Under the pieces are notes generated by a model. That model searched no databases. It was not told where the DNA came from and saw nothing but the letters and a program-made list of their open reading frames with translations. 49,327 nt of DNA from contig CACZBZ010000007.1 of assembly GCA_902779505.1 (NCBI GenBank), forward strand, positions 1 through 49,327, read 5' to 3'. Position numbers and translations under genes: made by a program. This document shows positions 2,034 through 42,050 of this stretch, in pieces (positions within the stretch are counted from its first letter, which is position 1; the number at the start of each line of letters is the position of its first letter). The stretch is from an uncultured Lachnospiraceae bacterium (GTDB lineage: Bacteria > Bacillota > Clostridia > Lachnospirales > Lachnospiraceae).

Positions 2034-2069
2034 GGTATCGGTATGGGAATTTTCAAGGAGGTATTTGCT

Positions 2070-8571: not shown

Positions 8572-9087
8572 GTGAACATACAACTTATGAACAAGAAAAG
8601 AATAACGACTCTGGTCTTAGCATTTACAATGATGGCTTCCCTCATGCTTACAGCATGCGGAAGCAAAAGCCCTGCGGTAAGTTTTTTAACAGATCTAACA
8701 TGGGAATCATCGGTGGATGACATGATCGCTGCAGAAGGTGAAGAATTCGATAGCTATGCTTCGGTATATAACGGCCTGACTTATATCTATCCCAAGACTT
8801 ATCAGACCAAAGACGGCGACATCAAATACATGTTTGATGACAAAGGCAAATTGTGTAATGTGGCTTGGTCCTACGAAGGTGAGACCGGGGATGATGTACT
8901 GGAGATATACAATCAGATAGTATCCTCCATCACGGCGGAAAGAGGAGAGGGCGAGAACCATGATGGTGTCAACACCTACGGAAGAGTGTGGAAGACAGAT
9001 AACGGCAGCATAGTCATATCAGCCGTAACCACCACCGGAGCCAACTTCCTCCAGCTCTCCTTCATGAGCAAGGAAGTCTCAAAATAA
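8572..9087 (+). CDS. Small secreted lipoprotein of unknown function
   Basis: A 171-residue protein with a signal peptide (NKKRITTLVLAFTMM) and lipobox LTAC; the mature domain is about 145 residues. The start is most likely GTG 8572, because AAGGAG (8562-8567) lies 4 bases upstream, whereas ATG 8587 (MNKKRIT) is 19 bases away from it. The mature part reads as an alternating strand-rich small domain (for example FTLD-like WESSVDDMIAAEGE, then YIYPKTYQTKDGDIKYMFDDKGKL). This resembles small lipoproteins that compare predicted and observed side chains in a beta-sheet, but I do not recognise the family. It lies 73 bases after the chemoreceptor and may share its transcript. Confidence 0.7.
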   Translation: MNIQLMNKKRITTLVLAFTMMASLMLTACGSKSPAVSFLTDLTWESSVDDMIAAEGEEFDSYASVYNGLTYIYPKTYQTKDGDIKYMFDDKGKLCNVAWSYEGETGDDVLEIYNQIVSSITAERGEGENHDGVNTYGRVWKTDNGSIVISAVTTTGANFLQLSFMSKEVSK

Positions 9088-9110
9088 GAATTTCTGAGAA
9101 TAGAATATTG

Positions 9111-9248
9111 CGAATACAAAAAAACTGATTACTTACGGAGACGCCTTTCGGCTTCGACTCCAGACGTAATGGTACGTAAGTCGCTAAAAGACAGCGACTA
9201 AGTACCAACGTCTTACGAGACTCCGTAAGTAGTCAGTTTTTTCATTCG
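9111..9248. repeat. Long nested hairpin between convergent genes (bidirectional terminator or MITE-like)
   Basis: The outer arms pair over nearly 30 bp with few mismatches: the left arm includes AAAAAACTGATTACTTACGG and the right arm is its near-complement ending in TCAGTTTTTT. Inside, AGACGT..GGTAC pairs with GTACC..ACGTCT, and AGTCGCT pairs with AGCGACT around a 6-7 base loop. The element fills the space between the converging lipoprotein and araC-type genes and has A-runs and T-runs at its ends, so it can terminate both. It is far longer than an ordinary terminator and has a layout similar to the element at 45537-45733. Confidence 0.75.
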
Positions 9249-9274
9249 CAAATATTTTTTCAGAAGCTTCCTTT

Positions 9275-10126
9275 TTAGAACCTTTGCTTCGTGAACTGCT
9301 TTGGAGTAATTCCTTTATACTTGTGGAATGTTTTAATAAAATAACTTTCATCACTAAAACCACAAGAAATAGCGACTTCTTTAATAGACGCATTCTTGGT
9401 GGACAGCATCTCGCAGGCACATTCGATACGATAGTAGTTGAGGTAATCGATGGGAGTACGCTCCGTCATGCTTCTGAAATACCGGCAGAAGTATTTGGGA
9501 TTCATTCCGGCGATTTTTGCCAGATTGTCCAGAGTGATGCTGCTTGAATAATTCTCGGAAATGTAGCCGAGAACATTCTTGATGGAATCAAGTCGCTCCG
9601 AGGTCAGATCGTCAGAGAGGATCTCTTTGTATAACTTTTCTTCTATAATTGTTCCGATAAGCATATAGAGATAAGCCTGGGTCATGAATTCATACCCCGG
9701 CTTTTTTTCGGATAAAGAAAGACACAGGGCCTCCGCAATCTCAGGAATCCTGTCGCTCTTCTCAGATAAAAGCGTATTGACCTTAATCTTGTGATTCATG
9801 ATGTTGTAAATGGTATTGTAGCAGGCATGATTGTCCTTCATGAGCATGCCCAGATCGAATACCACACAGTCGTAGACACAGTTCTCCGGGTTGCCACCGT
9901 GAAGAATACCGTCCGGTATAAAGATCACATCTCCGGCTTGATATTCCTTGGTCTCATTGCCCAGAGTCAGGTGAAAAGATCCTTCAAGAATGCGCATAAT
10001 TTCATACTCCGGGTGCCAGTGATATGTCATGTAATACCTTGGACTCAACTTGGTCTGATGGTAGTAAGCTATAGGAAAATTAAAGGTTCCTTGGGTTCTT
10101 CTTTCTTTGTAATCTATGTATCTCAT
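9275..10126 (-). CDS. AraC-family regulator with N-terminal cupin domain
   Basis: A 283-residue transcription factor. The N-terminal half has a sugar-sensing cupin fold (YHWHPEYEIMRILEGSF, then YQAGDVIFIPDGILHGG). The C-terminal 100 residues hold the double helix-turn-helix of AraC/XylS regulators (ITLDNLAKIAGMNPKYFCRYF and IKEVAISCGFSDESYFIKTF). Its start is supported by GGAGG and AAAGG upstream on the minus strand. It is divergent from fucI with 224 bases between the two coding starts, so it is a good candidate to activate the fucose genes together with or against the LacI protein encoded next to them. The ligand is probably a sugar but cannot be read directly. Confidence 0.9.
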   Translation of the reverse strand: MRYIDYKERRTQGTFNFPIAYYHQTKLSPRYYMTYHWHPEYEIMRILEGSFHLTLGNETKEYQAGDVIFIPDGILHGGNPENCVYDCVVFDLGMLMKDNHACYNTIYNIMNHKIKVNTLLSEKSDRIPEIAEALCLSLSEKKPGYEFMTQAYLYMLIGTIIEEKLYKEILSDDLTSERLDSIKNVLGYISENYSSSITLDNLAKIAGMNPKYFCRYFRSMTERTPIDYLNYYRIECACEMLSTKNASIKEVAISCGFSDESYFIKTFHKYKGITPKQFTKQRF

Positions 10127-24182: not shown

Positions 24183-25586
24183 TTGGATAAGAAATATTTT
24201 CTGGCCATAGATATAGGCGCGTCCAGCGGACGCCATATTCTTGGTTCTTTGAATGAGGGTAAAATCGAACTTGAGGAAGTCTACAGATTCTGGAACGGAA
24301 TGGATGATGTGGACGGAACTTTGTGCTGGGATCTGGACAGACTTTTTAACGAGATCATAAAGGGCATGAAAAAATGTAAAGAGATCGGTAAGATTCCGGA
24401 AAGCGTAGGTGTCGATACATGGGGAGTCGACTATGTGCTTTTGGATGAAAAGGATCAGATCATAGGTAAAGCCGTGGGTTACAGAGATCACAGAACCGAC
24501 GGAATGGATGAAGAAGTATATAAGATAATATCGGAGGACGATTTGTATGCAAGAACAGGTATACAGAAAGCAATCTATAATACGATATATCAGTTGATGG
24601 CATTGAAAAAGATCCATCCCGAGCAGATGGAAGCTGCAAAAGCCATGCTCATGATTCCCGATTATTTTCACTTCAGATTATCGGGAAAAAAGGTGCAGGA
24701 ATATTCGGAAGCTACAACCAGTCAGTTGTTGAATCCGGACAGCAGGGAATGGGATTATGAATTGATAGATATGCTCGGTTTCAATAAAGAGATATTCCAA
24801 AAGATATATATGCCGGGCACTTTTGTGGGTGAACTGACAAAAGAAGTAAGAGATATGGTTGGATATGATTGTAAGGTGGTTCTTCCGCCTACTCATGATA
24901 CTGCCAGTGCGGTTATGGCCATACCCACCAATGAGGAGAATACCTGTTACATATCATCGGGTACCTGGTCTCTTATGGGTGTGGAGATGGATAAGCCCAA
25001 TTGTTCGCCAAAGAGCAAAGAGGCAGACCTAACCAATGAGGGAGGCTACGGCGGTAAGATAACTTATCTTGCCAACATAATGGGACTGTGGATGATTCAG
25101 TCCGTTCGTAACAAACTTGCTCCGGATATGGGCTACGGTGAACTGTGCGACAGAGCATCCCGTGAGACCATAAAGAGCATAGTCGACTGTCAGGACTCTT
25201 CATTTTTATCTCCTGACGATATGGTTACAGCGGTACAGGATTATTGTAAAAAAACAGGCCAGCAGGTTCCCGAGACTCTCTACGAACTTGCAGCTGTCAT
25301 ATATAACAGCCTTGCAAAATGTTATGCCGACAAGCTTGCCACTATTGAGAGTATGACGGGAATAAAGTATAATAAGGTGAATATAATCGGTGGCGGTTCC
25401 AATGCAGCGTATCTTAACGAACTTACTGCTAAGAGCACAGGAGTCGACGTACATGCGGGTCCCGGTGAAGCCACTGCATTAGGAAATATACTTGCTCAGA
25501 TGATAGAGAGCGGACTCTTTGCTAACCTGCGAGAAGCAAGAGAATGTGTCAGAAGATCATTTGAAGTAAAAGTATACAGTAATTAG
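24183..25586 (+). CDS. Rhamnulokinase-family kinase, probably L-fuculose kinase
   Basis: A 467-residue FGGY kinase of the RhaB branch: FLAIDIGASSGRHILG at the N-terminus, VGVDTWGVDYVLLD, YRDHRTDGM, MIPDYFHFRLSG, YISSGTWSLMGVE and NIIGGGSNAAYLNELTA. It starts at TTG 24183, with AAGGGGG 5 bases upstream. RhaB phosphorylates L-rhamnulose at C1; L-fuculose kinase does the same chemistry on a C4 epimer. Because the window holds fucI, fucU and a fuculose-type aldolase but no rhamnose isomerase or rhamnulose aldolase, L-fuculose is the likely substrate. Use of both sugars is possible, since rhamnose and fucose both feed propanediol microcompartments. It is followed after 9 bases by the ParA gene. 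Confidence 0.85.
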   Translation: MDKKYFLAIDIGASSGRHILGSLNEGKIELEEVYRFWNGMDDVDGTLCWDLDRLFNEIIKGMKKCKEIGKIPESVGVDTWGVDYVLLDEKDQIIGKAVGYRDHRTDGMDEEVYKIISEDDLYARTGIQKAIYNTIYQLMALKKIHPEQMEAAKAMLMIPDYFHFRLSGKKVQEYSEATTSQLLNPDSREWDYELIDMLGFNKEIFQKIYMPGTFVGELTKEVRDMVGYDCKVVLPPTHDTASAVMAIPTNEENTCYISSGTWSLMGVEMDKPNCSPKSKEADLTNEGGYGGKITYLANIMGLWMIQSVRNKLAPDMGYGELCDRASRETIKSIVDCQDSSFLSPDDMVTAVQDYCKKTGQQVPETLYELAAVIYNSLAKCYADKLATIESMTGIKYNKVNIIGGGSNAAYLNELTAKSTGVDVHAGPGEATALGNILAQMIESGLFANLREARECVRRSFEVKVYSN

Positions 25587-25595
25587 CAGGTGAAT

Positions 25596-26372
25596 ATGAA
25601 CACAAGGACGATTTGTTTTACCAACAACAAAGGAGGAAGCGGAAAGTCAACCACGTGTGCCAACCTGGCATACGAGCTTTCGGCGGCAGGAAAAAAAGTC
25701 CTTATGGTGGACGGAGATATGCAGCTTAACCTGTCCTTATCTTTTTTTGAAGAAGATGAAGTGCTGGCTATGGCTGAGAACAAGAAGAATCTCTATTATG
25801 CCATTAAGGACAAAGATGACCTGACTGACTACATCGTAAAAACGGAATATGACAATCTGGATCTGATCCCCTCATCTACTCTGATGAGCCAGATTGAATA
25901 TGAACTGTTTACCATGATGCAGAGAGAACTGGTTCTGAAGAAATGCCTTAAGAAGGTTAAGGAATCGGGAAAATACGACTATATTCTCATTGATGCACCG
26001 CCGACTCTGGGCACATGGGTGATCAATATCCTGTGTGCGTCCGATGATGTAATAGTCCCGGTAGAGGCTTCTCCCTGGGGACTTTTCGGACTTGCGAATA
26101 TGTTTGAATTTATAGCGAGTCTGGAAGAGATGACGGATGCAAGAGTTCTTGGTGTACTTATCACCAAAGTGGACGAACGTAAGAATTATTACAGGCAGAC
26201 TATGGAAGTACTTGATTCTTATGAAAGCATCAATGTATTCAAGTCTGTTATTCATGTTGATTCAATGATTGAATGGGCACAGGACGCATCAAAACCGGTT
26301 GCTGTATTCAAGAAGAACACAAGAAGTGCTCTTGAATTCAGGGAACTGGCAAAAGAACTGATGAGACTGTGA
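25596..26372 (+). CDS. ParA/MinD-type ATPase, candidate microcompartment-positioning (McdA-like) protein
   Basis: A 258-residue P-loop ATPase with the deviant Walker A box NNKGGSGKSTTCANLA, the MVDGDMQLNLS segment and Walker B-like YDYILIDAPPTLG. This is a complete stand-alone ParA, without an N-terminal DNA-binding domain. GTG 25590 is an alternative start; both lie within 10 bases of the kinase stop, so translation is probably coupled. No ParB, parS, plasmid or phage gene is nearby. Instead it lies between the fucose kinase and the microcompartment operon and is followed after 14 bases by a small basic low-complexity protein. ParA-type McdA with small McdB partners positions carboxysomes, and the arrangement here is alike. 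The first lysine of the box is kept, unlike in McdA of Synechococcus. Role is inference. Confidence 0.8.
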   Translation: MNTRTICFTNNKGGSGKSTTCANLAYELSAAGKKVLMVDGDMQLNLSLSFFEEDEVLAMAENKKNLYYAIKDKDDLTDYIVKTEYDNLDLIPSSTLMSQIEYELFTMMQRELVLKKCLKKVKESGKYDYILIDAPPTLGTWVINILCASDDVIVPVEASPWGLFGLANMFEFIASLEEMTDARVLGVLITKVDERKNYYRQTMEVLDSYESINVFKSVIHVDSMIEWAQDASKPVAVFKKNTRSALEFRELAKELMRL

Positions 26373-26386
26373 GATAGGAGAAAAAA

Positions 26387-26731
26387 ATGGCAGTAGGAAA
26401 AGGAAGTATGGACAGAGCTGCAAAGACAACTGCAGCACAGAAGGATACACAGGTAAAGGAAGCAGTTAAGACAGAGTCGGCAGCAACAAAAGCACCTGCT
26501 AAGAAAGCACCGGCTAAGAAGCCTGTAGCAAAAAAAGCGCCTGCTAAGAAACCGGTAGCGGCAGCAAGCAAGAAGACAGCAGCCAAGAAAAGCGTTATAG
26601 CAGCAACTCATCCTCAGGTTCTCGGAATGATAGAATATGAGAAGAGCAGCCAGATGATAGACCAGAATACAGAAGTAAGACCTGATCTCAGAGTTGAGAT
26701 AGGCGATGCTATGCCGGTATATTATTTCTGA
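26387..26731 (+). CDS. Small Lys/Ala/Pro-rich (histone-H1-like) protein, candidate ParA partner
   Basis: A 114-residue protein. Residues 1-25 are polar; about 33-68 are built of KKAPAKKP/VAKKAPAKK-type repeats like bacterial histone-H1 tails and are strongly basic and probably disordered. The last 43 residues (from HPQVLGMIEYEKSSQ to MPVYYF) lose the repeat character and look like a defined interaction peptide, with an aromatic end. ATAGGAG precedes the ATG. It follows the ParA gene by 14 bases. A disordered basic small partner of a ParA ATPase beside a microcompartment operon recalls McdB, which is also small and low-complexity, but there is no visible similarity that I can claim. Nucleic-acid binding is an alternative. 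Confidence 0.65.
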   Translation: MAVGKGSMDRAAKTTAAQKDTQVKEAVKTESAATKAPAKKAPAKKPVAKKAPAKKPVAAASKKTAAKKSVIAATHPQVLGMIEYEKSSQMIDQNTEVRPDLRVEIGDAMPVYYF

Positions 26732-26763
26732 AATCTGCAAAAAAAGAAATGAAGGGGATTATT

Positions 26764-28527
26764 ATGAGAAAAAGAGTAATAATTGCAACTGTAATTTCTG
26801 TATTAACATTTGCCACATTCGCTAACGGATGTGGCAAAAATGCTGATACGGACAATCCGGGCACAGACGCAACAATGCCTGTAATGACCGAGGTCGAGAA
26901 TATTACTGAGAATGCCCCCGCGACTGCAGCCGATGCTGTGGGAGAATGGGAATTCGTATATATCAACGATCATTCGGAATACGGCGACGGAACAAGCTGG
27001 GATTATTTTACCATGGCTTCTGATGATGAAGGCATAGATATCGATCTGGCAATCAGGGAAAACGGTGACGGATATGCGCTGGATTTCCGTTGTGACAGAT
27101 ATGAGTCTTCCATCAAGATGTACGGCGCAACTCTTACCTATAAGGAAGAGGCGGCATATGAAAAAAGTGCAAACGATAAATGGTGTTTCGAAGTAATCGA
27201 ACCCTTTGCCGAAGATGACAAGAGCAGTCGTAAAATTACCCTTACAGACGACGGAATGCTGATCTTATATGAGTTCTATACATATACGGATTCGGAAAAT
27301 CCCGAATACAATTCTTTCTATGTCAGTGAATACAGATTTGTCAGAAAAGGTGACGAAAGACTTAACGATCTTGAGCAGTTCAGATATTTCGATACAGTTA
27401 CTGTAAGCAATGTTGTGGAACTGGTTAATTCACTCAAGAGCAACAGCTGCATAGAAGTGGAAGCGGGAACATATGATTTCTCACGTGTCTCTTCGAGTCA
27501 GATAGACAATGCAAGAGTACAGCTTATGTACGAGGAACTTGTTGTTTCGGATGTGCATGATATTAAGATCAAAGCCAAAGACGGAGCAGACGTTCTTTTC
27601 TGTGTGGACTCTCCCACAGCGGCAGTGCTTACATTTGAAAACGACCGCAAGCTTACCCTTGAAGGTATTACCGCGGGCCACAATGTTGAACCGGGCTTCT
27701 GCAGCGGAAGTGTTCTGAAGTTCAGCAACTGCAGCGGACTGAATATAGATAAGTGTAATCTCTACGGCAGCGGTACTTACGGTATTGATGCCACAAACAG
27801 TTATGATATCAATGTAACAGACTCCGAGATATACGAGTGCACCTACGGACTTCTCAATCTCTATGATATAGGAACTGCAAGATTCAGCAGATGTACCATG
27901 AGAGATTCGAAAGAATATTCCATGATCAATATCTACAGTGCTTATGATGTTACGTTTGAAGACTGTATTTTCGCGAATAATGAAGTGGCATATGACTACT
28001 GCTATTTTGTTGAGTTGGGAGATTATGATTCGGCCAATTTCCTGAATTGTACATTTAAAAACAACAAGTTCTATACTTTTGCCAACAAGGCAGTCAACAT
28101 GGAAAAGTGTAAGGACGAGAACAACTCAGCCGGATTCAAGGATGCCATGAATGATTCCGGAGTGCTTGATGCAACTGCAATCAAAAAAGAGTATGACAAT
28201 GCAGTGGAAAGGCAAAAGGAGATAGATACAGAGCTTAACGGATCCTTGATGGATCAGCAGAGCCTGAACGATCTGTCGTATGAGTCTTATACCATCTGGG
28301 ACAATCTTCTTAACAAGCTCTGGTCATACTTGGGAAGCACACTTGATGAGGCGACCTTCTCAAAGCTGGGTGAGGAAGAACTTACCTGGATAAAGGAAAA
28401 AGAAGCCAAGATGAAGAGTGACGGCGAACAGGTCAGCAGCGGAAGCATTCAGCCTATGGTTGAATACGGAAGCGGTGCCACAATAACAAGAAGCAGAGTT
28501 GAAGAACTCATGAATAAATATATGTAG
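26764..28527 (+). CDS. Exported lipoprotein with right-handed beta-helix and LprI-like C-terminus
   Basis: A 587-residue protein. The start ATG 26764 has GAAGGGG 6 bases upstream (ATG 26749 has none). A signal peptide leads to FANGC, a slightly irregular lipobox. About 55-200 is a strand-rich domain of the kind used for ligand comparison (WEFVYINDHSEYGDG..). About 220-450 is a right-handed beta-helix of pectate-lyase type with repeated asparagine-ladder turns (INVTDSEIYECTYGLLNLYD, VTFEDCIFANNEV, ANFLNCTFKNNKF). The last 100 residues (YESYTIWDNLLNKLWSYL, ELTWIKEKEAKM) resemble a DUF1311/LprI-type helical unit. A polysaccharide- or wall-binding role is likely; no catalytic residues are evident. 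It follows the ParA pair by 32 bases, but whether they act together is unknown. Confidence 0.75.
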   Translation: MRKRVIIATVISVLTFATFANGCGKNADTDNPGTDATMPVMTEVENITENAPATAADAVGEWEFVYINDHSEYGDGTSWDYFTMASDDEGIDIDLAIRENGDGYALDFRCDRYESSIKMYGATLTYKEEAAYEKSANDKWCFEVIEPFAEDDKSSRKITLTDDGMLILYEFYTYTDSENPEYNSFYVSEYRFVRKGDERLNDLEQFRYFDTVTVSNVVELVNSLKSNSCIEVEAGTYDFSRVSSSQIDNARVQLMYEELVVSDVHDIKIKAKDGADVLFCVDSPTAAVLTFENDRKLTLEGITAGHNVEPGFCSGSVLKFSNCSGLNIDKCNLYGSGTYGIDATNSYDINVTDSEIYECTYGLLNLYDIGTARFSRCTMRDSKEYSMINIYSAYDVTFEDCIFANNEVAYDYCYFVELGDYDSANFLNCTFKNNKFYTFANKAVNMEKCKDENNSAGFKDAMNDSGVLDATAIKKEYDNAVERQKEIDTELNGSLMDQQSLNDLSYESYTIWDNLLNKLWSYLGSTLDEATFSKLGEEELTWIKEKEAKMKSDGEQVSSGSIQPMVEYGSGATITRSRVEELMNKYM

Positions 28528-32312: not shown

Positions 32313-32651
32313 ATGGAAGACATGACAAACCAGATGGAAGGTGAAGCAGTAGGACTGTTGGAAGTATTCGGCCTTGTATGTGCTTTCCTTGCTGCGGACG
32401 CAGGATGCAAAGCAGCAGACGTAAGACTGGAAGTATTTGACAAGAACAAACCTGCCAATGCGGATTCGCTGCCGGTACCTTTGCTGGTAACGGTGAAGTT
32501 CAGAGGCAGTGTAGCGGATGTAAAAGAAGCCATGAGGGCTGCGGAAGCAGTTGCACTTGCCAATACGGGTATCGTGTCAAAGCACATTATTCCGAGACCA
32601 ACGTCAGATACTGAAAAAATGCTGAAGATCAGCGCATTAGATAAAGATTAA
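32313..32651 (+). CDS. Divergent microcompartment shell protein (BMC domain)
   Basis: A 112-residue single-BMC-domain protein. [29 protein letters not shown] followed by [21 protein letters not shown] and [14 protein letters not shown] shows the BMC fold, but the protein lacks the KxxGxG pore loop. In its place there is a seven-residue-longer loop ([14 protein letters not shown]), so the hexamer pore must differ. The N-terminus has an extra acidic stretch. It lies first among the shell genes, 24 bases after the dehydrogenase. A weak GGAGA precedes the ATG. Confidence 0.85.
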
Positions 32652-32685
32652 ACTATCAAACAAGAAATTAAGGAGGAGGCATAAT

Positions 32686-32967
32686 ATGTCACAGGAAGCA
32701 TTAGGAATGGTAGAAACAAGAGGACTTACAGCAGCTATTGAAGCAGCAGATGCAATGACAAAGGCAGCTGAGGTTACATTGGTAGGAACAGAGAAGATCG
32801 GTTCCGGACTCGTTACAGTTATGGTACGTGGAGACGTAGGAGCAGTTAAGGCTTCTGTTGAAGCAGGTACTTCTGCAGCAAGCAGACTCGGTGAACTCGT
32901 AGCAACACATGTAATTCCTCGTCCACACAACGACGTTGAGAAGATTCTTCCCAAGTTCAAGGCTTAA
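32686..32967 (+). CDS. pduA: Microcompartment hexameric shell protein (PduA-like)
   Basis: A 93-residue BMC-H protein, opening [11 protein letters not shown], with the pore loop [18 protein letters not shown] and the end [13 protein letters not shown]. The Ser in the pore loop corresponds to the propanediol-passing pore of PduA. Major facet building block. AAGGAGGAG lies before the ATG. It is nearly a copy of the protein at 33413, suggesting gene duplication. Confidence 0.96.
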
Positions 32968-33006
32968 ATAAAAGCCCAACATCCGGGTAAGATTCAGGAG
33001 AAAAAC

Positions 33007-33363
33007 ATGATCGGTGCATATGGATTTATAGAAATTACCGGTGTTGTTGCAGCAATGGATGCACTGGATATTATGTGTAAAGCAGCTGACATTAAACTGT
33101 CCACATGGGAGAGAAAGCTCGGAGGACGACTTGTAACCATGGTTATTGAAGGGGAGGTGGCAGCTGTCAAAGTTGCTATCGAGGCCGGAAGAACTCAGGC
33201 TATCAAGAGGCCTGCCAACTATGGAGTTATCTCCAACCCCCATCCCGAGATAATCAGGATGGTTGAATTGTCGGCAAGCCGGTTCAGGGGTAAAGAAGAG
33301 CCCTCATCTGATTCAAAGATGTTGGGTCAGGACCCGCCGGATTTTGTACCAAAAGACAAATAA
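33007..33363 (+). CDS. Microcompartment shell protein with C-terminal tail
   Basis: A 118-residue BMC-domain protein: GAYGFIEITGVVAAMDALDIMCKAADIKL, then the pore region KLGGRLVTMVIEGEVAAV and ISNPHPEIIRMVE. About 25 polar residues (REEP..SDSKMLGQDPPDFVPKDK-like) follow the domain and are probably flexible, which recalls the PduK/EutK arrangement, but they are too short to be the Zn or DNA-binding module of those proteins. It sits between the two PduA-like genes. Confidence 0.9.
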   Translation: MIGAYGFIEITGVVAAMDALDIMCKAADIKLSTWERKLGGRLVTMVIEGEVAAVKVAIEAGRTQAIKRPANYGVISNPHPEIIRMVELSASRFRGKEEPSSDSKMLGQDPPDFVPKDK

Positions 33364-33412
33364 GATTTTTAAACAGATGATTTAAAACACAAGAAGACAG
33401 GAGGAAATGATT

Positions 33413-33691
33413 ATGTCAATGGAAGCATTAGGAATGGTTGAGACAAGAGGTCTTGTAGCAGCAATCGAGGCAGCAGATGCAATGTGTAAGGCTGCTAACG
33501 TAACACTTGTAGGAACAGAGAAGATCGGTTCCGGACTTGTAACAGTTATGGTACGTGGAGATGTAGGAGCTGTTAAGTCTTCGGTTGAGGCAGGTGCCAA
33601 CAGCGCAGGAAGCCTTGGCGAGCTTATCGCAACACATGTAATCCCTCGTCCACACAACGATGTTGAGCTTATTCTTCCCAAGGTAAAGTAA
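33413..33691 (+). CDS. Microcompartment hexameric shell protein (second PduA-like)
   Basis: A 92-residue BMC-H protein almost identical to the one at 32686, with the same [10 protein letters not shown] opening, [18 protein letters not shown] pore and [10 protein letters not shown] ending. ATG 33413 is chosen: AGGAGG (33399-33404) lies 8 bases upstream, while ATG 33407 is only 2 bases away. Codon use is narrow and indicates high expression. Major facet protein. Confidence 0.96.
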
Positions 33692-33718
33692 TTAAAGCTA
33701 ACAAAGGTGGTGTGAATA

Positions 33719-34366
33719 TTGGATAACAACAGTATTGAGCAGATCACCAGAATGGTCATAGAGGCTCTCGGCGAATCCGGAAAGGATGAAGTCAAAATGA
33801 AGGTGCCCGTAGGGGTATCCGCAAGACACATTCATCTGACTCAGGAGGATGTCGAGAAACTCTTCGGCCCAGGCTATCAGCTCACTAAGAAAAAAGATCT
33901 TATGGGAGGCCAGTTCGCCTCAAATGAGCAGTGCACCATAGTGGGTCTCAAGCTTCGAGCTATTGAGAACGTGAGAATCCTCGGACCTGTAAGAAAAAAG
34001 ACTCAGGTTGAGATATCTCAGACAGATGCCCGCACATTGGGAATCAATGCTCCCGTAAGACAGTCCGGTGATACAGCCGGATCGGCGCCGATAGCTATTG
34101 TGGGACCCAAGGGTGCCATATATGTTAACGAAGGCTGCATAGTAGCGGCAAGACATATTCATATGTCGACAACAGATGCTATCAAAGGCGGATATAAGGA
34201 CGGCGACTTCGTATCGGTCAAGGTTGAAAATGACAGAGGAGCTGTTCTGGACAATGTGAAGATAAGGGTTGATGATTCTTTCACATTGGAGATGCACATC
34301 GATACAGATGAAGCAAATGCCTGCCAGATCAAGCAGGGAGATACAGTAGCAATATTAGCAAATTAG
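33719..34366 (+). CDS. pduL: Phosphotransacylase PduL
   Basis: A 215-residue enzyme converting propionyl-CoA and phosphate to propionyl-phosphate and CoA, so recycling CoA within the shell. It begins at TTG 33719 (AAAGGTGGTG upstream), and residues 3-18 (NSIEQITRMVIEALGES) form the encapsulation helix. Two halves repeat the PduL motif with zinc-binding histidines: SARHIHLTQED and AARHIHMSTTDA. GQFASNEQ and the QSGDTAGSAPIAIVGP linker are typical. Full length. Confidence 0.96.
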   Translation: MDNNSIEQITRMVIEALGESGKDEVKMKVPVGVSARHIHLTQEDVEKLFGPGYQLTKKKDLMGGQFASNEQCTIVGLKLRAIENVRILGPVRKKTQVEISQTDARTLGINAPVRQSGDTAGSAPIAIVGPKGAIYVNEGCIVAARHIHMSTTDAIKGGYKDGDFVSVKVENDRGAVLDNVKIRVDDSFTLEMHIDTDEANACQIKQGDTVAILAN

Positions 34367-34394
34367 CAGTGACCAACAGTAAGGTGGATTAATT

Positions 34395-34661
34395 ATGATT
34401 ATAGGAAAAGTAGTGGGAAGCGTTTTTTCAACAAGAAAAAGCGACAAATTGGTAGGTAATAAATTCATGATAGTAGAGCCTGTTGAGTCTATGACTCAGA
34501 GCGGTTCGAAGTTGGTTGCAATTGATATCATCGGAGCCGGAATCGGAGAATATGTACTGGTGGCACAGGGATCAGCTGCCAGAATAGGATGCGATGTTGC
34601 GGACGCTCCAATTGATGCTGCAATCGTCGGAATAATCGATGAAGGACAGGAATGGAGCTGA
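34395..34661 (+). CDS. Microcompartment pentameric vertex protein (EutN/CcmL, BMC-P)
   Basis: An 88-residue beta-barrel protein that caps the vertices of the shell. MIIGKVVGSVFSTRKSDKLVG, then VAIDIIGAGIGEYVLVAQGSAAR and IDAAIVGIID are the standard EutN/CcmL signature. It overlaps the next gene (PduS) by 10 bases, which indicates translational coupling. The only pentamer protein in the window. Confidence 0.96.
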   Translation: MIIGKVVGSVFSTRKSDKLVGNKFMIVEPVESMTQSGSKLVAIDIIGAGIGEYVLVAQGSAARIGCDVADAPIDAAIVGIIDEGQEWS

Positions 34662-36007
34662 AGACCATGCTTATTGATGAGTTAAAAAGTATTGCAAGGG
34701 ATAATGGCATAGTGGGAGCCGGTGGAGCCGGTTTCCCGGCATATGCCAAGATGACGGAAAAGGCAGACACGGTAATACTCAACTGTGTGGAATGTGAACC
34801 TTTGCTCAAACTTCACAGACAGCTTTTGGCTACTCATACAAAAGAGATAATCACGATGTTAGATGAAGTGAGGCAGGCATTCGGTGCAAAGGAAGCCGTT
34901 GTGGGAATCAAGAATGAATACAAGGCTACCATTGATGCGCTTAATGAGATATTACCCGATTTTCCAAATGTAAGGATATGCGGTCTCAAAGCGGCATACC
35001 CCATGGGAGACGAAGTTGTTCTTATATACGAGGCAACAGGCAGAGTTATAAGAGCGGGCGGACTTCCCATAGAAGAGAATGTAGTGGTCTACAATGTGGA
35101 GACCATGTACAACCTTTACAGAGCGGTACATCTGAATATACCGGTAACCAACAAACTGGTGTCCATAGTCGGAGAGATAGACAGACCTCTTACTGTAAGA
35201 GTTCCTCTGGGAACCACAGTCAGAGAAGCAATAGCTCTTGCGGGACATGTAACTTGTGCGGATCCGGCTTACCTTATGGGAGGCCCCATGATGGGAAGAC
35301 TGGGAACCGAGAACACAGTCATAACAAAGACAACAAATGCGATTATCATTCTTCCAAAAGACCATCCGGTCATTGCGAAGATGAATAAGAAGCTTGAAAT
35401 AGAGAGAAAGAGGGCTTCATCGGCATGCTGCCAGTGCAGAACATGTACGGATATGTGTCCGAGACACGCACTGGGCCATCCCATAGAACCCCATAAGGTC
35501 ATGAGAGCCGTGGCTAACGCGGATACATCGGACCTGAGTGTATATACCAATACGGCATTCTGCAGCGGATGCGGCGTATGTGAAAAATATGCCTGTCCTC
35601 AGGGACTTTCACCTAAGTCAATAATACAGAACCTTAAAGGCGGTTTAAGAGGAGCAGGTGTGAAGGTTGAACCTGTGGAATCGACAGGGGTGATTGAAGA
35701 CAGAGAGCTGAGAAAGGTGCCCGTTCACAGACTGGCAGCCAGACTGGGACTTAGCAGGTATGACGTGGAAGCACCTTTTATAGATACAACGCCTAGCACG
35801 GCCTATGTAAGGATTCAGATGAGCCAGCATATAGGTGCTCCGGCAGTTCCAACAGTAACTGTGGGAGAGATGGTTAAAAAAGGTCAGAAGATAGCTGAAG
35901 CCGCCGAAGGCTTAAGCGTAAGTATCCACTGTTCAATAGACGGAATCGTGGAAGAAGTATCAGATAGAGAAGTAGTAGTGAGAGAGAGGACAGTAACAAA
36001 TGGCTAA
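34652..36007 (+). CDS. pduS: Electron-transfer flavoprotein/Fe-S protein PduS (RnfC-like)
   Basis: A 451-residue redox protein. The N-terminal glycine loop GIVGAGGAGFPAYAK and the CVECEP segment belong to the Nqo1/RnfC-type NADH/FMN module, then an SLBB region. Two [4Fe-4S] motifs follow (CCQCRTCTDMCP and CSGCGVCEKYACP). The C-terminal part is a barrel-sandwich domain (VTVGEMVKKGQKIAEA). It probably carries electrons from NADH to the shell protein PduT or to the cytosol. In B12-dependent loci PduS services cobalamin; here no cobalamin gene is seen, so a role in redox balance or in priming the activase is more likely. Start has GAAGGACAGG upstream. Confidence 0.93.
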   Translation: MELKTMLIDELKSIARDNGIVGAGGAGFPAYAKMTEKADTVILNCVECEPLLKLHRQLLATHTKEIITMLDEVRQAFGAKEAVVGIKNEYKATIDALNEILPDFPNVRICGLKAAYPMGDEVVLIYEATGRVIRAGGLPIEENVVVYNVETMYNLYRAVHLNIPVTNKLVSIVGEIDRPLTVRVPLGTTVREAIALAGHVTCADPAYLMGGPMMGRLGTENTVITKTTNAIIILPKDHPVIAKMNKKLEIERKRASSACCQCRTCTDMCPRHALGHPIEPHKVMRAVANADTSDLSVYTNTAFCSGCGVCEKYACPQGLSPKSIIQNLKGGLRGAGVKVEPVESTGVIEDRELRKVPVHRLAARLGLSRYDVEAPFIDTTPSTAYVRIQMSQHIGAPAVPTVTVGEMVKKGQKIAEAAEGLSVSIHCSIDGIVEEVSDREVVVRERTVTNG

Positions 36008-36548
36008 AGCATTGGGAATGGTTGAGATATCAACAGTATCATCCGGATTCGCGGCAGCGGATCAGATGGCTAAGGCTGCAGATGTAGAATTGCTTCAGGC
36101 CGAAGTTACATGTCCGGGTAAATTCGTAATCCTCATAGCGGGGGAGATAAGTGCGGTTAAGGCATCGGTTGATGTGGCCGCAAAAAATTACGCAGACAAA
36201 GTTATAGACACATTTGTACTCGGCAATCCTCATGAGTCAATCTTCCCTGCCATATACGGTACGGCAGAAGTTGAAAAAGTGGACGCCTTGGGAATTCTTG
36301 AAACATATGATGTTGCGGCACTTATAGTTGCGGCCGATTTTGCGGCAAAGACGGCAATAGTCGAGCTGTTGGAGATACGTTTGGCAAAGGGTATGTGCGG
36401 TAAGTCATATATGACTCTGACAGGAAGTGTATCGGCGGTAACGGCGGCAATCGAGAAAGCGAAGGCAGAGGCCGGAGAAAAGGGCATGTTCCTTGACAGC
36501 CAGGTTATTGCAAGACCTTCGGACAGATTGCTCAAATACATCATGTAA
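36000..36548 (+). CDS. pduT: Trimeric tandem-BMC shell protein (PduT-like)
   Basis: A 182-residue protein with two BMC domains in tandem: KALGMVEISTVSSGFAAADQM and, from about residue 95, ALGILETYDVAALIVAADFA. The Cys in QAEVTCPGKF is at the position that binds a central [4Fe-4S] cluster in PduT trimers, so the protein could pass electrons through the shell. It overlaps the PduS gene by 8 bases, consistent with the known PduS-PduT partnership. Confidence 0.94.
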   Translation: MAKALGMVEISTVSSGFAAADQMAKAADVELLQAEVTCPGKFVILIAGEISAVKASVDVAAKNYADKVIDTFVLGNPHESIFPAIYGTAEVEKVDALGILETYDVAALIVAADFAAKTAIVELLEIRLAKGMCGKSYMTLTGSVSAVTAAIEKAKAEAGEKGMFLDSQVIARPSDRLLKYIM

Positions 36549-37355: not shown

Positions 37356-37411
37356 GAAAGGAAAGTTTCATGAGCAGTTTTTTATATGACAGACAGTACA
37401 GCTGTAAATAA
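37356..37411 (+). promoter_or_regulatory. Ribosome site and 13-codon reading frame overlapping the glycyl radical gene start
   Basis: GAAAGGA (37356-37362) lies 7 bases before an ATG at 37370 that opens a 13-codon frame (MSSFLYDRQYSCK, stop at 37409-37411). That frame overlaps the apparent dehydratase start at 37386 in another frame. The dehydratase ATG itself has no ribosome site at a normal distance. If the six-T run at 37378-37383 were five Ts, the ATG at 37370 would lead straight into the dehydratase frame. Confidence 0.5.
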
Positions 37412-39873
37412 GACAGAGAGAATAGCAAAGCTTGTAGAGCATCTCTATGCAAAAAAGCCTGAGATCGAGCCTGCAAGAGCAGAACTTATCACAGAGTCTT
37501 TCAAGCAGACGGAAGGCAAGCCCATTGTTCTTCGTAAGGCATTGTCGTTTAAGCATATTCTCGAGAATCTGCCTATTATAATCAGACCTTTGGAACTTAT
37601 TGTGGGCAGCAGCACCATAGCTCCCAGAGGATGTCAGACATACCCGGAATTCTCTTATGAGTGGCTGGAAGCGGAATTCGATACTGTAGAGAACAGAGCT
37701 GCGGATCCTTTCTATATATCGGAAGATACAAAAAAGAGACTTAAAGCTGTTAACGGTTATTGGAAGGGCAAGACCACAAGCGAGCTGGCAGAGTCCTATA
37801 TGGCTCCCGAAGCTCTTAAGCTTATGGCTCACAACTTCTTCACACCGGGCAATTATTTCTACAATGGAATAGGACATTTCACGGTTCAGTACGATAAGGT
37901 TCTTGCCGTAGGACTGAACGGTATTATTAGAGAAGCGGCAGCAGAACTTGAGACAGTTAAGCCCGGAGACTATAACTGTGCCACCAAGACTGCCTTTCTT
38001 CAGGCGGTTATCATAGGCTGCAAGGCCGTTGCGGATTACGGAAAAAGATATTCTGAGCTTGCTAAGGAGATGGCTGAGAAGGAAGCCGACCCCGTAAGAA
38101 AGGCCGAGCTTTTAAAGATAGCTGAAGTATGTGCACATGTTCCCGCAGAACCCGCAAGGAATTTCTACGAGGCATGCCAGTCTTTCTGGTTCATACAGCA
38201 GACCATTCAGCTTGAATCCAGCGGACATTCCATCTCTCCCGGAAGATTTGATCAGTATATGTTCCCTTATTTCAAGAAGGACATTGATGAAGGCAATATA
38301 ACAAGAGAATTTGCCCAGGAACTTCTGGATTGTATATGGGTAAAACTCAACGATCTTAATAAGTGTCGTGATGCTGTAAGTGCAGAAGGTTTTGCAGGTT
38401 ATTCACTTTTCCAGAACCTTATAGTGGGCGGCCAGACAAAGGACGGCATGGATGCCACCAACGATCTGTCATTCATGTGTCTGGATGCAACAAAGCATGT
38501 ATTCCTTCCCATGCCTTCAATCTCAATAAGAGTATGGAACGGCTCGCCTCAGGAACTGCTCCTTCGTGCAGCGGCTCTTACCAGAACGGGAATCGGTTTT
38601 CCCGCATATTACAATGATGAGATAATTATCCCCGCACTTCTTAACAGAGGAATTCCTCTTGAAGAAGCAAGGGGCTACAGCATAATCGGATGCGTTGAGC
38701 CTCAGGTACCCGGCAAGACGGACGGATGGCATGACGCGGCATTCTTCAATATGTGCAGACCTCTGGAGATGGTATTCTCCAACGGATACGATCAGGGAGA
38801 ACTGGTAACCCTTAAGACCGGAGAATTATCCGAACTTAAGACTTATGAAGACTTCAAGGCTGCATATAAGAAGCAGATGGATTACTGTATATCCATGCTT
38901 GTCAATTCCATTAATGCAATTGATGTGGCACATGCCGAGAGAGCACCTCTTGCCTTTGTATCAAGCCTTGTGGATGACTGTATGAAGAAGGGCAAGTCAA
39001 TGCAGGAAGGCGGAGCCGTATATAACTTTACCGGCCCTCAGGGCTTCGGTATAGCCAATGTGGCCGATTCACTTTACACCGTTAAGACTCTGGTCTATGA
39101 GCAGAAGAAGATCACTCTGGAAGAGCTTAAGAAGGCAATGGATATGAACTTCGGTCAGGGCTTCGATGAGAAGACGGCTACGGAAGTTGCACTTCAGGTG
39201 GCAAAAGCATACAGACTCGAAGGTAAGGAAGTATCTTCCGCACTTTTGGAATCAATAATAACAAATGTACTTACAATGGAATTGTCGGCTGAGGAGAAGG
39301 CCCATTACGAGGAGATCAAGAATATGATCGATGACATCCCCAAGTACGGCAATGATATTGATGAAGTTGATGAGATAGCAAGAGAAGCGGCATATTATTA
39401 CACAAAGCCTGTTGAGACCTTTAAGAATCCCAGAGGCGGACAGTATCAGGCAGGACTTTATCCCGTATCTGCCAATGTTCCTTTGGGAGCACAGACAGGT
39501 GCAACACCTGACGGTCGTCTGGCACACATGCCTATTGCGGACGGTGTATCGCCTACCTCGGGAAGAGATGTTAACGGTCCCACAGCCTCATGTAATTCGG
39601 TTGCAAAACTTGATCATGCCATAGCAAGTAACGGAACTCTCTTCAATATGAAGATGCATCCTACGGCAATGGCAGGAGACAAGGGCCTTGAATCCTTTGT
39701 CACTCTTGTAAGAGGATACTTCGATCAGAAGGGTATGCATATGCAGTTCAACGTCGTTGACAGAGAGACTCTTCTTGATGCTCAGAAGCATCCCGAAAAA
39801 TATGCCGGCGGGCTTAAGCAAGTCACTTCAGGATGAGATCATCAGAAGAACGGAACAGGCTCAGAACAGATAA
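37386..39873 (+). pseudogene. Glycyl radical diol dehydratase (B12-independent), C-terminal glycine loop deleted and frameshifted
   Basis: The reading frame gives 816 residues (stop at 39834-39836) of a propanediol/glycerol-dehydratase-type glycyl radical enzyme that would turn 1,2-propanediol into propionaldehyde. The thiyl cysteine C436 and E438 in IIGCVEPQVPG are present, as are FPAYYNDEIIIPALL and QFNVVDRETLLDAQKHPEKYAG. The family continues with the loop RVAGYS-like that holds the radical glycine, about 14 residues. Here YAG is followed by GLKQVTSG and a stop. The normal last residues (LSKSLQDEIIRRTEQAQNR) are found at 39814-39873 in another frame. So about 38 bases appear lost (not a multiple of three), including the glycine codon. 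As written the protein cannot carry the radical. The rest has normal length (about 845 expected). A real mutation or an assembly error are both possible. Confidence 0.85.
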
Positions 39874-39887
39874 TCATTGAGGTTGTT

Positions 39888-40685
39888 ATGAAAGAATACA
39901 TGAACGAAAAAGGAAGAATATTCGATATACAGAGATATTCAATCCATGACGGAATCGGCGTCAGAACCATAGTATTCCTTAAAGGCTGTGCCTTGAGATG
40001 CAGATGGTGCTGTAATCCGGAGTCACAGAATTACGACATAGAGAATATGACCGTTAACGGCAAGGTCAAGACCATGGGCCGTGATGTAAGCGTAGAGGAC
40101 GTAATGAAGGTGGTAAAAAGAGATCTGCCTTATTACTCAAGATCCGACGGCGGTCTTACCTTATCAGGCGGCGAGAGCCTTTTGCAGCCGGCTTTCTCAT
40201 CGGCACTGCTTCGAGCAGCCAAGGACATGGGCCTTAACACGGCGCTTGAGAGCATGGGATTTGCGGAATATTCCGTTATAGAAAAAGATATACTTCCCTA
40301 TCTGGATACATATCTTATGGATATCAAACACATGGATCCCATGAAGCATAAGGAGTGGACGGGAAAAGAGAACACCCTTATGGTGGAAAATGCAATGAAG
40401 ATCGCCAAGAGCGGAATGTGCAAGCTTATAATCAGAGTTCCCGTTGTTCCGGGATTCAATGATACAGAGAAAGAACTTCTGGATATAGCCAGATATGCGG
40501 ACAGTCTTCCGGGAGTTGAAAACATTCACATACTTCCCTATCACAATTACGCAATGGGCAAGTATGAAGGTCTTAACAGACCTTATTCCATGGGGGATGC
40601 AAAAATCCCCGAGACTGACAGAATGGAAGCCTTTAAGAAGGCCATAGAGAGGGAAACACATCTTAACTGTCAGATAGGCGGTTGA
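39888..40685 (+). CDS. Glycyl radical enzyme activase (radical SAM)
   Basis: A 265-residue radical SAM enzyme that would install the glycyl radical on the diol dehydratase. The CxxxCxxC cluster motif is in KGCALRCRWCCNPESQ; the SAM-binding GGE motif is LTLSGGES. Most dehydratase-type activases carry an extra eight-cysteine ferredoxin insert right after the NPE motif; this protein has no such cysteines there, so it is of the short, pyruvate-formate-lyase-activase-like layout. It begins 15 bases after the end of the dehydratase tail. It appears intact, in contrast to its substrate. Confidence 0.92.
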   Translation: MKEYMNEKGRIFDIQRYSIHDGIGVRTIVFLKGCALRCRWCCNPESQNYDIENMTVNGKVKTMGRDVSVEDVMKVVKRDLPYYSRSDGGLTLSGGESLLQPAFSSALLRAAKDMGLNTALESMGFAEYSVIEKDILPYLDTYLMDIKHMDPMKHKEWTGKENTLMVENAMKIAKSGMCKLIIRVPVVPGFNDTEKELLDIARYADSLPGVENIHILPYHNYAMGKYEGLNRPYSMGDAKIPETDRMEAFKKAIERETHLNCQIGG

Positions 40686-40708
40686 TTTTATTAAGAAGGG
40701 TTGTCAGT

Positions 40709-41071
40709 ATGCCAAACGAACACGAACAGATAAGAATAGTCCAGGAGACGGTTGCAGGTAAGGAGATAACTTTTGCCCACATTATGGGCGGACCTGCTCC
40801 CATCATATATCAGAAGCTGGGACTTAATCCCCAGATTGATTATTCGTCTTCTGCCATAGGTATTATGAACATGACTCCGCCGGAGTCTGCGGTCATAGCC
40901 TCGGATATAGCGGTTAAGAGCGGTGATGTCTATCTTGGCTTTGCCGACAGATTCACGGGAACACTCATCATAACGGGAGAACTGTCGGATGTAAGTTCTG
41001 CCCTTGAAGAAGTAGTCAACTATTTCCGCGATGAACTGGGATACGTTGTATGCAGGATCACCAAGAGTTAG
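40709..41071 (+). CDS. Circularly permuted shell protein 1 (PduU/EutS-like)
   Basis: A 120-residue BMC protein in which the strands are permuted: it opens with IRIVQETVAGKEITFAHIMG and ends with TGTLIITGELSDVSSALEEVVNYF, matching the PduU/EutS architecture with a small beta-barrel over the pore. ATG 40709 is chosen, with AAGGG 8 bases upstream. It overlaps no neighbour and is followed after 11 bases by a second protein of the same kind. Confidence 0.9.
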   Translation: MPNEHEQIRIVQETVAGKEITFAHIMGGPAPIIYQKLGLNPQIDYSSSAIGIMNMTPPESAVIASDIAVKSGDVYLGFADRFTGTLIITGELSDVSSALEEVVNYFRDELGYVVCRITKS

Positions 41072-41082
41072 GAAGTGATATC

Positions 41083-41511
41083 ATGCCTCGTATGGACAAA
41101 AAAGAACTCTTAGAAAGAATATTTAATGACGATTACGAGAGTCTGAAAGGGAAGACGCTGAGGATGACCAGGGTCAGAGTGCCCGGCAAGGAAGTTTGTC
41201 TTGCTCATGTCATCAATCCCACAGATGAAAGTGTATATAAGAATTTGGGTTTGCATATAGGGGTACATGAAGGCGAGAACCATATGGGTGAAGCAATAGG
41301 AATGGTTCGCTTTACACCCTGGGAATGCGTGGTGGCAGCAGCGGATGTTGCCATGAAGGCTGCCAATGTGGAGATTGGATTCATGGATCGTTTTTGCGGT
41401 TCCCTTATAGTCACGGGAAGACTTACGGATGTGGAGACCGCAGTGGAGAAGGTTGTGGAATTCTTCAGAGACGACCTGGGATTCAGGACCTGCGATGTGC
41501 ATAAAAACTGA
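41083..41511 (+). CDS. Circularly permuted shell protein 2 (PduU/EutS-like)
   Basis: A 142-residue BMC protein related to the preceding one (TRVRVPGKEVCLAHVINP, then AIGMVRFTPWECVVAAADVAMKAANVEIGFMDRFCGSLIVTGRL). It has about 22 extra N-terminal residues (PRMDKKELLERIFNDDYESL) that could form a helix on the lumen face or bind cargo. ATG 41083 is the start (GGAAGTG upstream). Tandem permuted shell proteins probably form a mixed or two distinct hexamers. Confidence 0.88.
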   Translation: MPRMDKKELLERIFNDDYESLKGKTLRMTRVRVPGKEVCLAHVINPTDESVYKNLGLHIGVHEGENHMGEAIGMVRFTPWECVVAAADVAMKAANVEIGFMDRFCGSLIVTGRLTDVETAVEKVVEFFRDDLGFRTCDVHKN

Positions 41512-41525
41512 CGGCAAAAGGAATT

Positions 41526-42050
41526 ATGAAGAGATTATTTTTAATGGGAAGAAGTGAAGCCGGCAAGACATCACTGGCCCAGGTTCTCAGAGGAGAAGAA
41601 CTTCATTACGTTAAGACGCAGTACACCAACGCGGATGATGATATGATCGATTCGCCCGGTGAATACGCCGAGTCCAAGGTGTTCAGCACAGGACTTGCCT
41701 GTTTTTCTTTTGAAGCCGATGTGGTGGCAATAGTTCAGGCAGCGGATGAACCTTTCAATCTCTTCGGTTCAAGTATTCAGGGAAGCATATTAAGACCTCT
41801 TATCGGAGTGATAACCAAGACCGATTCACCATATGCCAATGTGCCAATGATAAGACAATGGATGATCAATTCCGGATGTGAGAGGATATTCGAAGTAAAC
41901 AATATTACAAGAGAAGGAGCGGAAGAACTTCTTGCTTATCTTAAAGAAGACCTTCCCCGCATAAGCCTTGAAGAGGCCAAATTCAGACAAAGATACGGTA
42001 TAAAGGAATGGGAAGATGTCCCGACAGAACTGCAAAAAAACGATAGATAA
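41526..42050 (+). CDS. PduV/EutP-type small GTPase
   Basis: A 174-residue P-loop NTPase. RLFLMGRSEAGKTSLAQ is the P-loop, DSPGEY the G3 region and ITKTD the G4 base-recognition motif. PduV associates with the outside of microcompartments and affects their movement; EutP was reported to act as an acetate kinase. It ends the operon just before a terminator. With the ParA pair upstream, two nucleotide-driven proteins flank the microcompartment genes. Confidence 0.92.
   Translation: MKRLFLMGRSEAGKTSLAQVLRGEELHYVKTQYTNADDDMIDSPGEYAESKVFSTGLACFSFEADVVAIVQAADEPFNLFGSSIQGSILRPLIGVITKTDSPYANVPMIRQWMINSGCERIFEVNNITREGAEELLAYLKEDLPRISLEEAKFRQRYGIKEWEDVPTELQKNDR

Follow-up and report, generated by a model that had tools for sequence, protein, structure and literature searches.

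A stretch of 49,327 nucleotides from an uncultured Lachnospiraceae bacterium (contig CACZBZ010000007.1; here called the window, meaning the whole stretch analysed) bears on how metabolosomes, as opposed to carboxysomes, are placed in the cell and inherited. In it, the gene for a ParA-family ATPase and a small gene just behind it precede a locus for a glycyl-radical microcompartment (BMC). The two genes probably form an McdAB-like system that positions a rhamnose/fucose 1,2-propanediol microcompartment. A candidate positioning system had been proposed here by an earlier, sequence-only reading, whose interpretation is partly supported by the results below. With defined genes and two short conserved peptides, the pair permits precise predictions.

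All annotated genes from a LacI-type regulator (12285) to a PduV-like GTPase (42050) lie on the plus strand; genes for the transport and breakdown of sugars come first, and the glycyl-radical microcompartment locus follows. The kinase gene upstream of the ATPase (24183..25586, plus strand) had been taken for a fucose kinase coupled to the ParA. The coupling is real, only 9 bases separating the two genes, and the enzyme is a rhamnulokinase (NCBIfam TIGR02627, 528.7 bits, cut-off 527.95), the fuculokinase model giving 139.7 of the 470.9 bits required. The shell genes begin at 32313, about 5.6 kb past the partner gene and on the same strand, and the locus comprises seven BMC-domain genes, EutN, a phosphate propanoyltransferase, an aldehyde dehydrogenase, a glycyl radical enzyme and its activase. 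Four of the BMC-domain shell genes, the phosphate propanoyltransferase and EutN occupy 32313..34661 (Pfam and annotation) and a shell protein with two BMC domains 36000..36548, and their products would be the cargo of the pair; the glycyl radical enzyme and activase, the likely core of the microcompartment, occupy 37386..40685, followed at 40682..42050 by two more BMC-domain genes and the PduV/EutP-like GTPase, all on the plus strand. In NCBIfam the glycyl radical enzyme falls into the PFL2-3 subfamily and reaches no equivalog cut-off; the pathway suggests that it is a propanediol dehydratase. Promoter-like sites numbered 10 against a chance mean of 12.0 and terminator-like sites 8 against 4.3, which gives no operon boundary. 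As had been stated before, no ParB-like sequence is present in the window (best E 0.86). Seventeen bases past the partner gene, a plus-strand gene (26749-28527) encodes a right-handed beta-helix protein whose C-terminal domain is of the LprI type; it is absent from the 45 neighbour clusters listed for ParA loci.

The ATPase gene (25596..26372, plus strand) starts with an ATG at 25596, preceded by AGCAGGTG, and its stop codon ends at 26372. Sequence, profile matches, alignment, tree and structural model identify the product of 258 amino acids as a McdA-like member of the ParA family. The stand-alone ParA with an intact deviant Walker A box described earlier is confirmed: the box reads NNKGGSGKST, the Pfam match is to AAA_31 (E 2.7e-54), and the signature lysine of ParA/MinD-family ATPases is present. 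Across an alignment of 47 rows, in which the relatives are 59-80% identical, both Walker lysines (K12 and K17) are invariant, and so are K191, R195, K196 and R243, some of which, by analogy with the ParA family, may bind DNA. The relatives belong to a clade of 85 rows that is separate from five Soj-type rows (support 100/100), and the window protein sits within a subclade of 15 rows (100/100), 12 of which have a rhamnulokinase just upstream in the sequence stretches at hand.

The predicted model of the ATPase (pLDDT 91.5) matches the folds of Soj, ParA and McdA with query TM values of 0.80-0.90; fold (0.80-0.89) and Walker motifs are thus common to it and chromosomal Soj. The nearest other match in the same genome is only 34% identical and is a Soj that adjoins a normal ParB (L002). 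An ordinary Soj/ParB identity was rejected, since such a pair is present elsewhere in the genome and the window ParA belongs to the separate clade. Among solved structures, the closest in sequence are ParA 8ray (106 bits) and Helicobacter pylori Soj (91 bits), with Cyanothece McdA at 64 bits, the McdA comparison being confined to cyanobacterial structures. Orthology with McdA would predict a closer match to McdA than to Soj, and the scores (64 versus 106 and 91 bits) run the other way; a position nearer to Soj than to cyanobacterial McdA fits an independent version of a positioning ATPase.

The ATPase occurs almost exclusively together with BMC genes. In a sample of 397 genomes of the family, 42, spanning 37 genera, encode it (E <= 1e-60) and 119 have the shell domain PF00936, the 42 being a subset of the 119. 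Co-occurrence had been put forward as a check on the pair, and BMC shell genes are found in 42/42 genomes with the ATPase against 77/355 without (Fisher p 2.6e-25). The same direction is seen in a class sample of 391 genomes (3/3 against 111/388, p 0.024) and in 61 relatives (3/3 against 9/58, p 0.006). At most six candidates per genome were scored in the class and family searches. In a wider contig set, represented by the best 80 of 178 loci, 79 of 80 genomes have PF00936, the exception being G084; G139 has a single match and G097 has two. Species are shared among the family, class, relatives and wider contig sets, and the p values ignore relatedness. Homologues lying mostly in genomes that lack microcompartments would have spoken against the proposal, and the opposite was found in the 42 family genomes and the 79 of 80 from the best 80 of 178 loci. 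Among 20 genomes of the window's own genus, many of them incomplete, BMC genes and the ATPase are confined to that of the window.

The association extends to the type of microcompartment. Glycyl radical enzymes with 60% identity or more to that of the window occur in 40 of the 42 family genomes with the ATPase, some of the matches being partial, and in 29 of the 77 BMC-positive family genomes that lack this ATPase (p 1.1e-10); the 60% line was set post hoc, at a gap between 53% and 60%. The ATPase thus goes with this type of BMC, although the type often occurs without it, and the 77 genomes, 29 of them with the matching enzyme, show that it is not required. The two exceptions are G707, whose only glycyl radical enzyme match is 35% identical, and G587, with none at E <= 1e-100. 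At L107 (1-10780) the pair is divergent and lies beside genes for EutA, EutB, EutC, BMC proteins and an aldehyde dehydrogenase, which is a change of cargo type, with an ethanolamine instead of a glycyl-radical microcompartment. The partner at L107 matches that of L160, which comes from G587, and judged by sequence the two sources are very probably the same species.

As to physical linkage, searches with the window's shell proteins (tblastn) detected a shell gene in the flanking sequence of 22/82 loci, many flanks being short. Within the best 80 of 178 loci of the wider contig set, 58 of 80 show no shell gene in the available flank, and 14 of the 50 flanked by 9 kb or more on either side show one. 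The ATPase and the glycyl radical enzyme share a contig in 18/42 family genomes, lying within 15 kb of each other in 15 and at most 79 kb apart (G762). The position of the ATPase gene varies, being after the rhamnulokinase as in the window, after a DeoR regulator at the far end, after PduV or before the glycyl radical enzyme, and its linkage to BMC genes changes at least 11 times on the tree. As a control, none of 17 Soj-like hits (E <= 1e-20) in BMC-positive relatives was found, by eye, to lie closer than 20 kb to a BMC gene; three share a contig with one, all in G024 and more than 440 kb away. An iron-type alcohol dehydrogenase gene lies within 8 kb of the ATPase at twelve loci, at several of them directly 3' of the partner and with no shell gene in reach; the one scanned scores below every NCBIfam cut-off, so that a role as a BMC enzyme is putative.

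Chemotaxis genes had been named as the kind of neighbour that would count against a microcompartment function. Three of the Pfam-scanned ORFs of the window carry a chemotaxis-receptor signalling domain, none closer than 17 kb to the pair, and a receptor like these lies near 1 of 82 loci (L112). At 2043-3998 (plus strand), ferredoxin and iron-hydrogenase large-subunit domains stand ahead of a methyl-accepting chemotaxis signalling domain; the product is possibly a hydrogen or redox receptor. At L049, L051, L055, L060, L076 and L078 a conserved protein of about 260-300 amino acids is encoded upstream of the ATPase (cluster L078:8982-9860), and for the L078 copy no NCBIfam model reaches E <= 1e-5.

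The partner gene (26387..26731, plus strand), recognised by its ORF, motifs and composition, begins with an ATG at 26387, 14 bases after the ATPase gene and preceded by AGGAG; the ribosome-binding sites of both genes are plausible. Its McdB-like product of 114 amino acids is rich in Lys, Ala and Pro. What defines a partner is the peptide at each end, [VI]GKxSIxRA-like at the N-terminus and LPxYLL-like at the C-terminus, and the middle varies freely. In the window, codons 26387..26428 (residues 1-14) specify the N-terminal peptide, a putative ParA-activating site; 26429..26596 (residues 15-70) the Lys/Ala/Pro-rich linker, with a net charge of +13 and neither length nor sequence conserved; and 26711..26728 the C-terminal peptide MPVYYF, a candidate shell-docking tail. 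Histone-H1-like repeats had been attributed to this protein; the 114 residues and short direct repeats in the gene, with spacings of 15 and 30 bases, are there, and the match to the histone-like HC2 family stops at 24.4 of 40 bits. Membership in DUF6465 (15.7 of 26 bits, residues 13-72 only) likewise falls below the curated cut-off. Pfam gives no helix-turn-helix match in the window partner, and a ParB N-terminal domain is absent from it (core profile E 3.9).

A small partner lies directly downstream of the ATPase in the window and at 77 of 85 loci, where the N motif [VI]GxxS[ILMVF]x[RK] opens the ORF; one of these ORFs runs into a contig end. Of the 76 complete partners, 75 were picked by the N motif alone and one (L075) by N and C motifs together. 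The glycine of the N motif is followed by lysine in 67, and the first 20 residues carry a median net charge of +3, matching the charged N-terminus expected of an McdB. The distinct C-terminal peptide noticed earlier is real and conserved, the sequence of every one of the 76 closing with [LMI]Px[YWFH][LYFMI][LFMYI]. Residue -3 is Tyr in 61, Trp in six, His in five and Phe in four, giving the expected C-terminal aromatic in all except the five with His, though not the Trp that is invariant in carboxysome McdB. None of the 76 has a net positive charge over its last ten residues, and 71 of them have an acidic residue at -10 to -4. Between the ends the proteins differ widely, with lengths of 61-224 amino acids and Lys+Ala+Pro shares of 0.19-0.67. 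A basic N-terminus, a variable middle and a C-terminal aromatic near acidic residues, as in McdB, make a metabolosome-positioning McdAB-like pair the most likely reading.

The C motif is also selective. The partner is the sole window ORF of at least 40 amino acids that ends in it, and in the 1.38 Mb of L033-L112, 73 of the 76 such ORFs are partners and three are others. Variants can escape such scans, as does the partner at L174 (G532; 9040-9340), which stands outside the 76 and has the tail LPIFLR, off the motif and with a basic last residue. A scan for orphan partner copies in 20 stretches of BMC operons (358,635 bases) found no C-motif ORF. Eight of the 85 loci have no partner downstream. 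In 29 further loci of the family sample a partner is present in 25 and absent in four; among 19 of those 25 partners, 14 are copies of sequences already counted. Searches with the C motif, the N motif and a looser N motif found no partner elsewhere in the BMC stretches of seven of the eight (all but L069) and all four partnerless loci; a minus-strand C-motif ORF at L168, which overlaps a shell gene, was taken as chance. L005 has no partner, and at L164, L166, L167, L169, L170, L171 and L106 an ATPase of the clade lies near a glycyl radical enzyme or rhamnulokinase with no partner found.

In 12 of the 76 complete partners, a ParB N-terminal domain lies between the same two end peptides, in place of the Lys/Ala/Pro repeat. 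A profile built from these twelve recognises them at E <= 5.2e-28, and the other 64 partners score no better than 0.43, so that hidden ParB remnants in the linear partners were rejected. Eight of the ten ParB-type partners scanned pass the Pfam cut-off for PF02195 and the other two just miss it; a helix-turn-helix match was found in none of the ten. The profile also matches ParB, Spo0J and Noc structures (E 3e-13 to 2e-12). The model of the L081 partner has a mean pLDDT of 63.8 and is confident only in a core at about residues 28-107, so that only the core was used; its best match is ParB bound to a CTP analogue (E 3.3e-6), with a low TM value, presumably because the ends are disordered. An N-terminal peptide followed by a ParB_N fold is common to these partners and to ParB/Spo0J N-terminal domain proteins, including the ParB-like PadC (6ryk), and a basic N-terminal peptide ahead of ParB_N is the order of true ParB. 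Printed starts of Soj-linked ParBs of relatives, counted by eye, open with LG[KR]G in 19 of 21. The partners differ from ParB/Spo0J in the missing helix-turn-helix match (ten scanned), in an LPxYLL-type tail and in the GERR motif, the CTP-binding motif of ParB, of which G and the last R are kept and E is lost in all 12.

Similar pairs have been described in outline. The McdAB systems of alpha and beta carboxysomes likewise consist of a ParA-family ATPase and a small low-complexity partner just downstream, with a link to BMCs (PMC8262871, PMC11321042, PMC12204374), and have in common with the window pair the charged partner N-terminus and the aromatic residue near the very C-terminus. According to the available text of these papers, the first 20 residues of Halothiobacillus neapolitanus McdB are necessary and sufficient for McdA binding (PMC12204374), and the C-terminal Trp of McdB is required for carboxysome binding, where Tyr can replace it in Synechococcus elongatus (PMC11321042). 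The window clade differs in that its partners mostly have Tyr (61/76) instead of the invariant Trp, some hold a ParB domain, the ATPase scores higher against Soj than against Cyanothece McdA (91 versus 64 bits), and the pair stands beside metabolosome rather than carboxysome genes. Also on record are McdB-like proteins belonging to PDU and GRM BMCs, with Tyr or Phe among their last five residues (PMC11321042), McdAB-like pairs near GRM BMCs (PMC11321042, PMC8262871) and McdAB-like genes near EUT BMCs (PMC13052382). The window pair shares the BMC type and terminal Tyr/Phe of these putative systems and is very probably of the same kind; the concept is therefore not new, and uniqueness of the pair is not supported. 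In the portions of these publications at hand, neither an occurrence test in Clostridia, a defined N-terminal motif or end peptides, nor ParB-domain forms of the partner were found, and the literature consulted in part showed no ParB-domain partner at BMC loci, no member of this Clostridial ParA clade and none close to it near a EUT BMC. The words 'McdA' and 'positioning' are absent from the main text of a BMC catalogue (PMC8217296). In Salmonella, neither ParA nor MinD is reported to affect the Pdu BMC (PMC12866334, available text).

If the pair works as such a system, DNA binding, ATPase activation, shell docking and positioning are the activities that we infer for it. ATP-bound ParA dimers would bind the nucleoid non-specifically, and the partner would use its C-terminal aromatic peptide to sit on the shell. 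Its N-terminal GKxSIxRA peptide could then contact the ParA dimer and trigger ATP hydrolysis and release, and the Lys/Ala/Pro stretch would serve as a flexible spacer, perhaps prone to form condensates. Each organelle would thereby clear ParA from its vicinity and move up the ParA gradient, and the organelles would in consequence be spaced and shared between daughter cells.

Other functions can be imagined for the same genes. The pair might act on DNA, as a chromosomal or integrated-element partition system that hitch-hikes near BMC genes, and the closeness of the ATPase to Soj in sequence and fold agrees with this, as does the ParB N-terminal domain of 12/76 partners. However, neither the window partner nor the ten ParB-type partners scanned out of twelve show a helix-turn-helix match, the genome carries its own Soj/ParB, and the presence of the ATPase tracks BMC genes over 37 genera, which renders such a role very unlikely. 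Hardly more probable is a BMC core or scaffold protein whose ends are encapsulation peptides, with the ATPase controlling assembly rather than position. Linkage to BMC loci agrees with this, as does a variable linker that ends in a short conserved peptide, but the N-terminal peptide stands where the Soj-linked ParBs have their LG[KR]G start and is followed by the ParB domain in 12 partners, which points to a ParA-facing end and not to an encapsulation helix.

It had further been suggested that the partner grips the nucleoid by its basic repeats, in the manner of histone H1, tethering the organelles directly. The charge of +13 in the window linker and the weak HC2 match below its cut-off lend this some colour, but the middle is not conserved, being free in length (partners of 61-224 amino acids) and sequence, and the ParB-type partners, with a ParB-type domain there instead of the repeat, keep both ends; direct tethering is thus highly improbable, and McdAB-like positioning of the microcompartment is the preferred reading.

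It is conceivable, if somewhat doubtful, that this positioning system arose from a ParABS system that was turned to organelle segregation. The partner would then be a ParB in which the ParA-activating N-terminus was retained, the domains for DNA binding and dimerisation were lost and a shell-docking tail was added; ParB_N would have decayed to a low-complexity linker in most lineages, the 12 ParB-domain forms being surviving intermediates. The presence of the domain changes at least five times on the tree, and a single ParB-type clade is not rejected (p-AU 0.077), so that repeated independent loss of the domain was not established. If such descent is correct, the ParB-type partners may load a nucleotide-gated ParB fold onto a protein shell and not onto a centromere. 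It would also provide an ancestry for McdB-type adaptors; McdB is described, in the text available, as having no identifiable similarity to ParB (PMC6328274). With homologous partners that contain a ParB domain, the question of where organelle-positioning adaptors came from becomes directly testable. Six of the ParB-type partners (L081, L087, L097, L098, L100 and L105) have their genes at the end of BMC operons. At L052, L057, L062 and L080, ParB-domain partners occur with no shell gene in the flanking sequence at hand; these loci share neighbours that presumably resemble homoserine dehydrogenase and aspartokinase, and an RnfC-like gene lies near three of the four.
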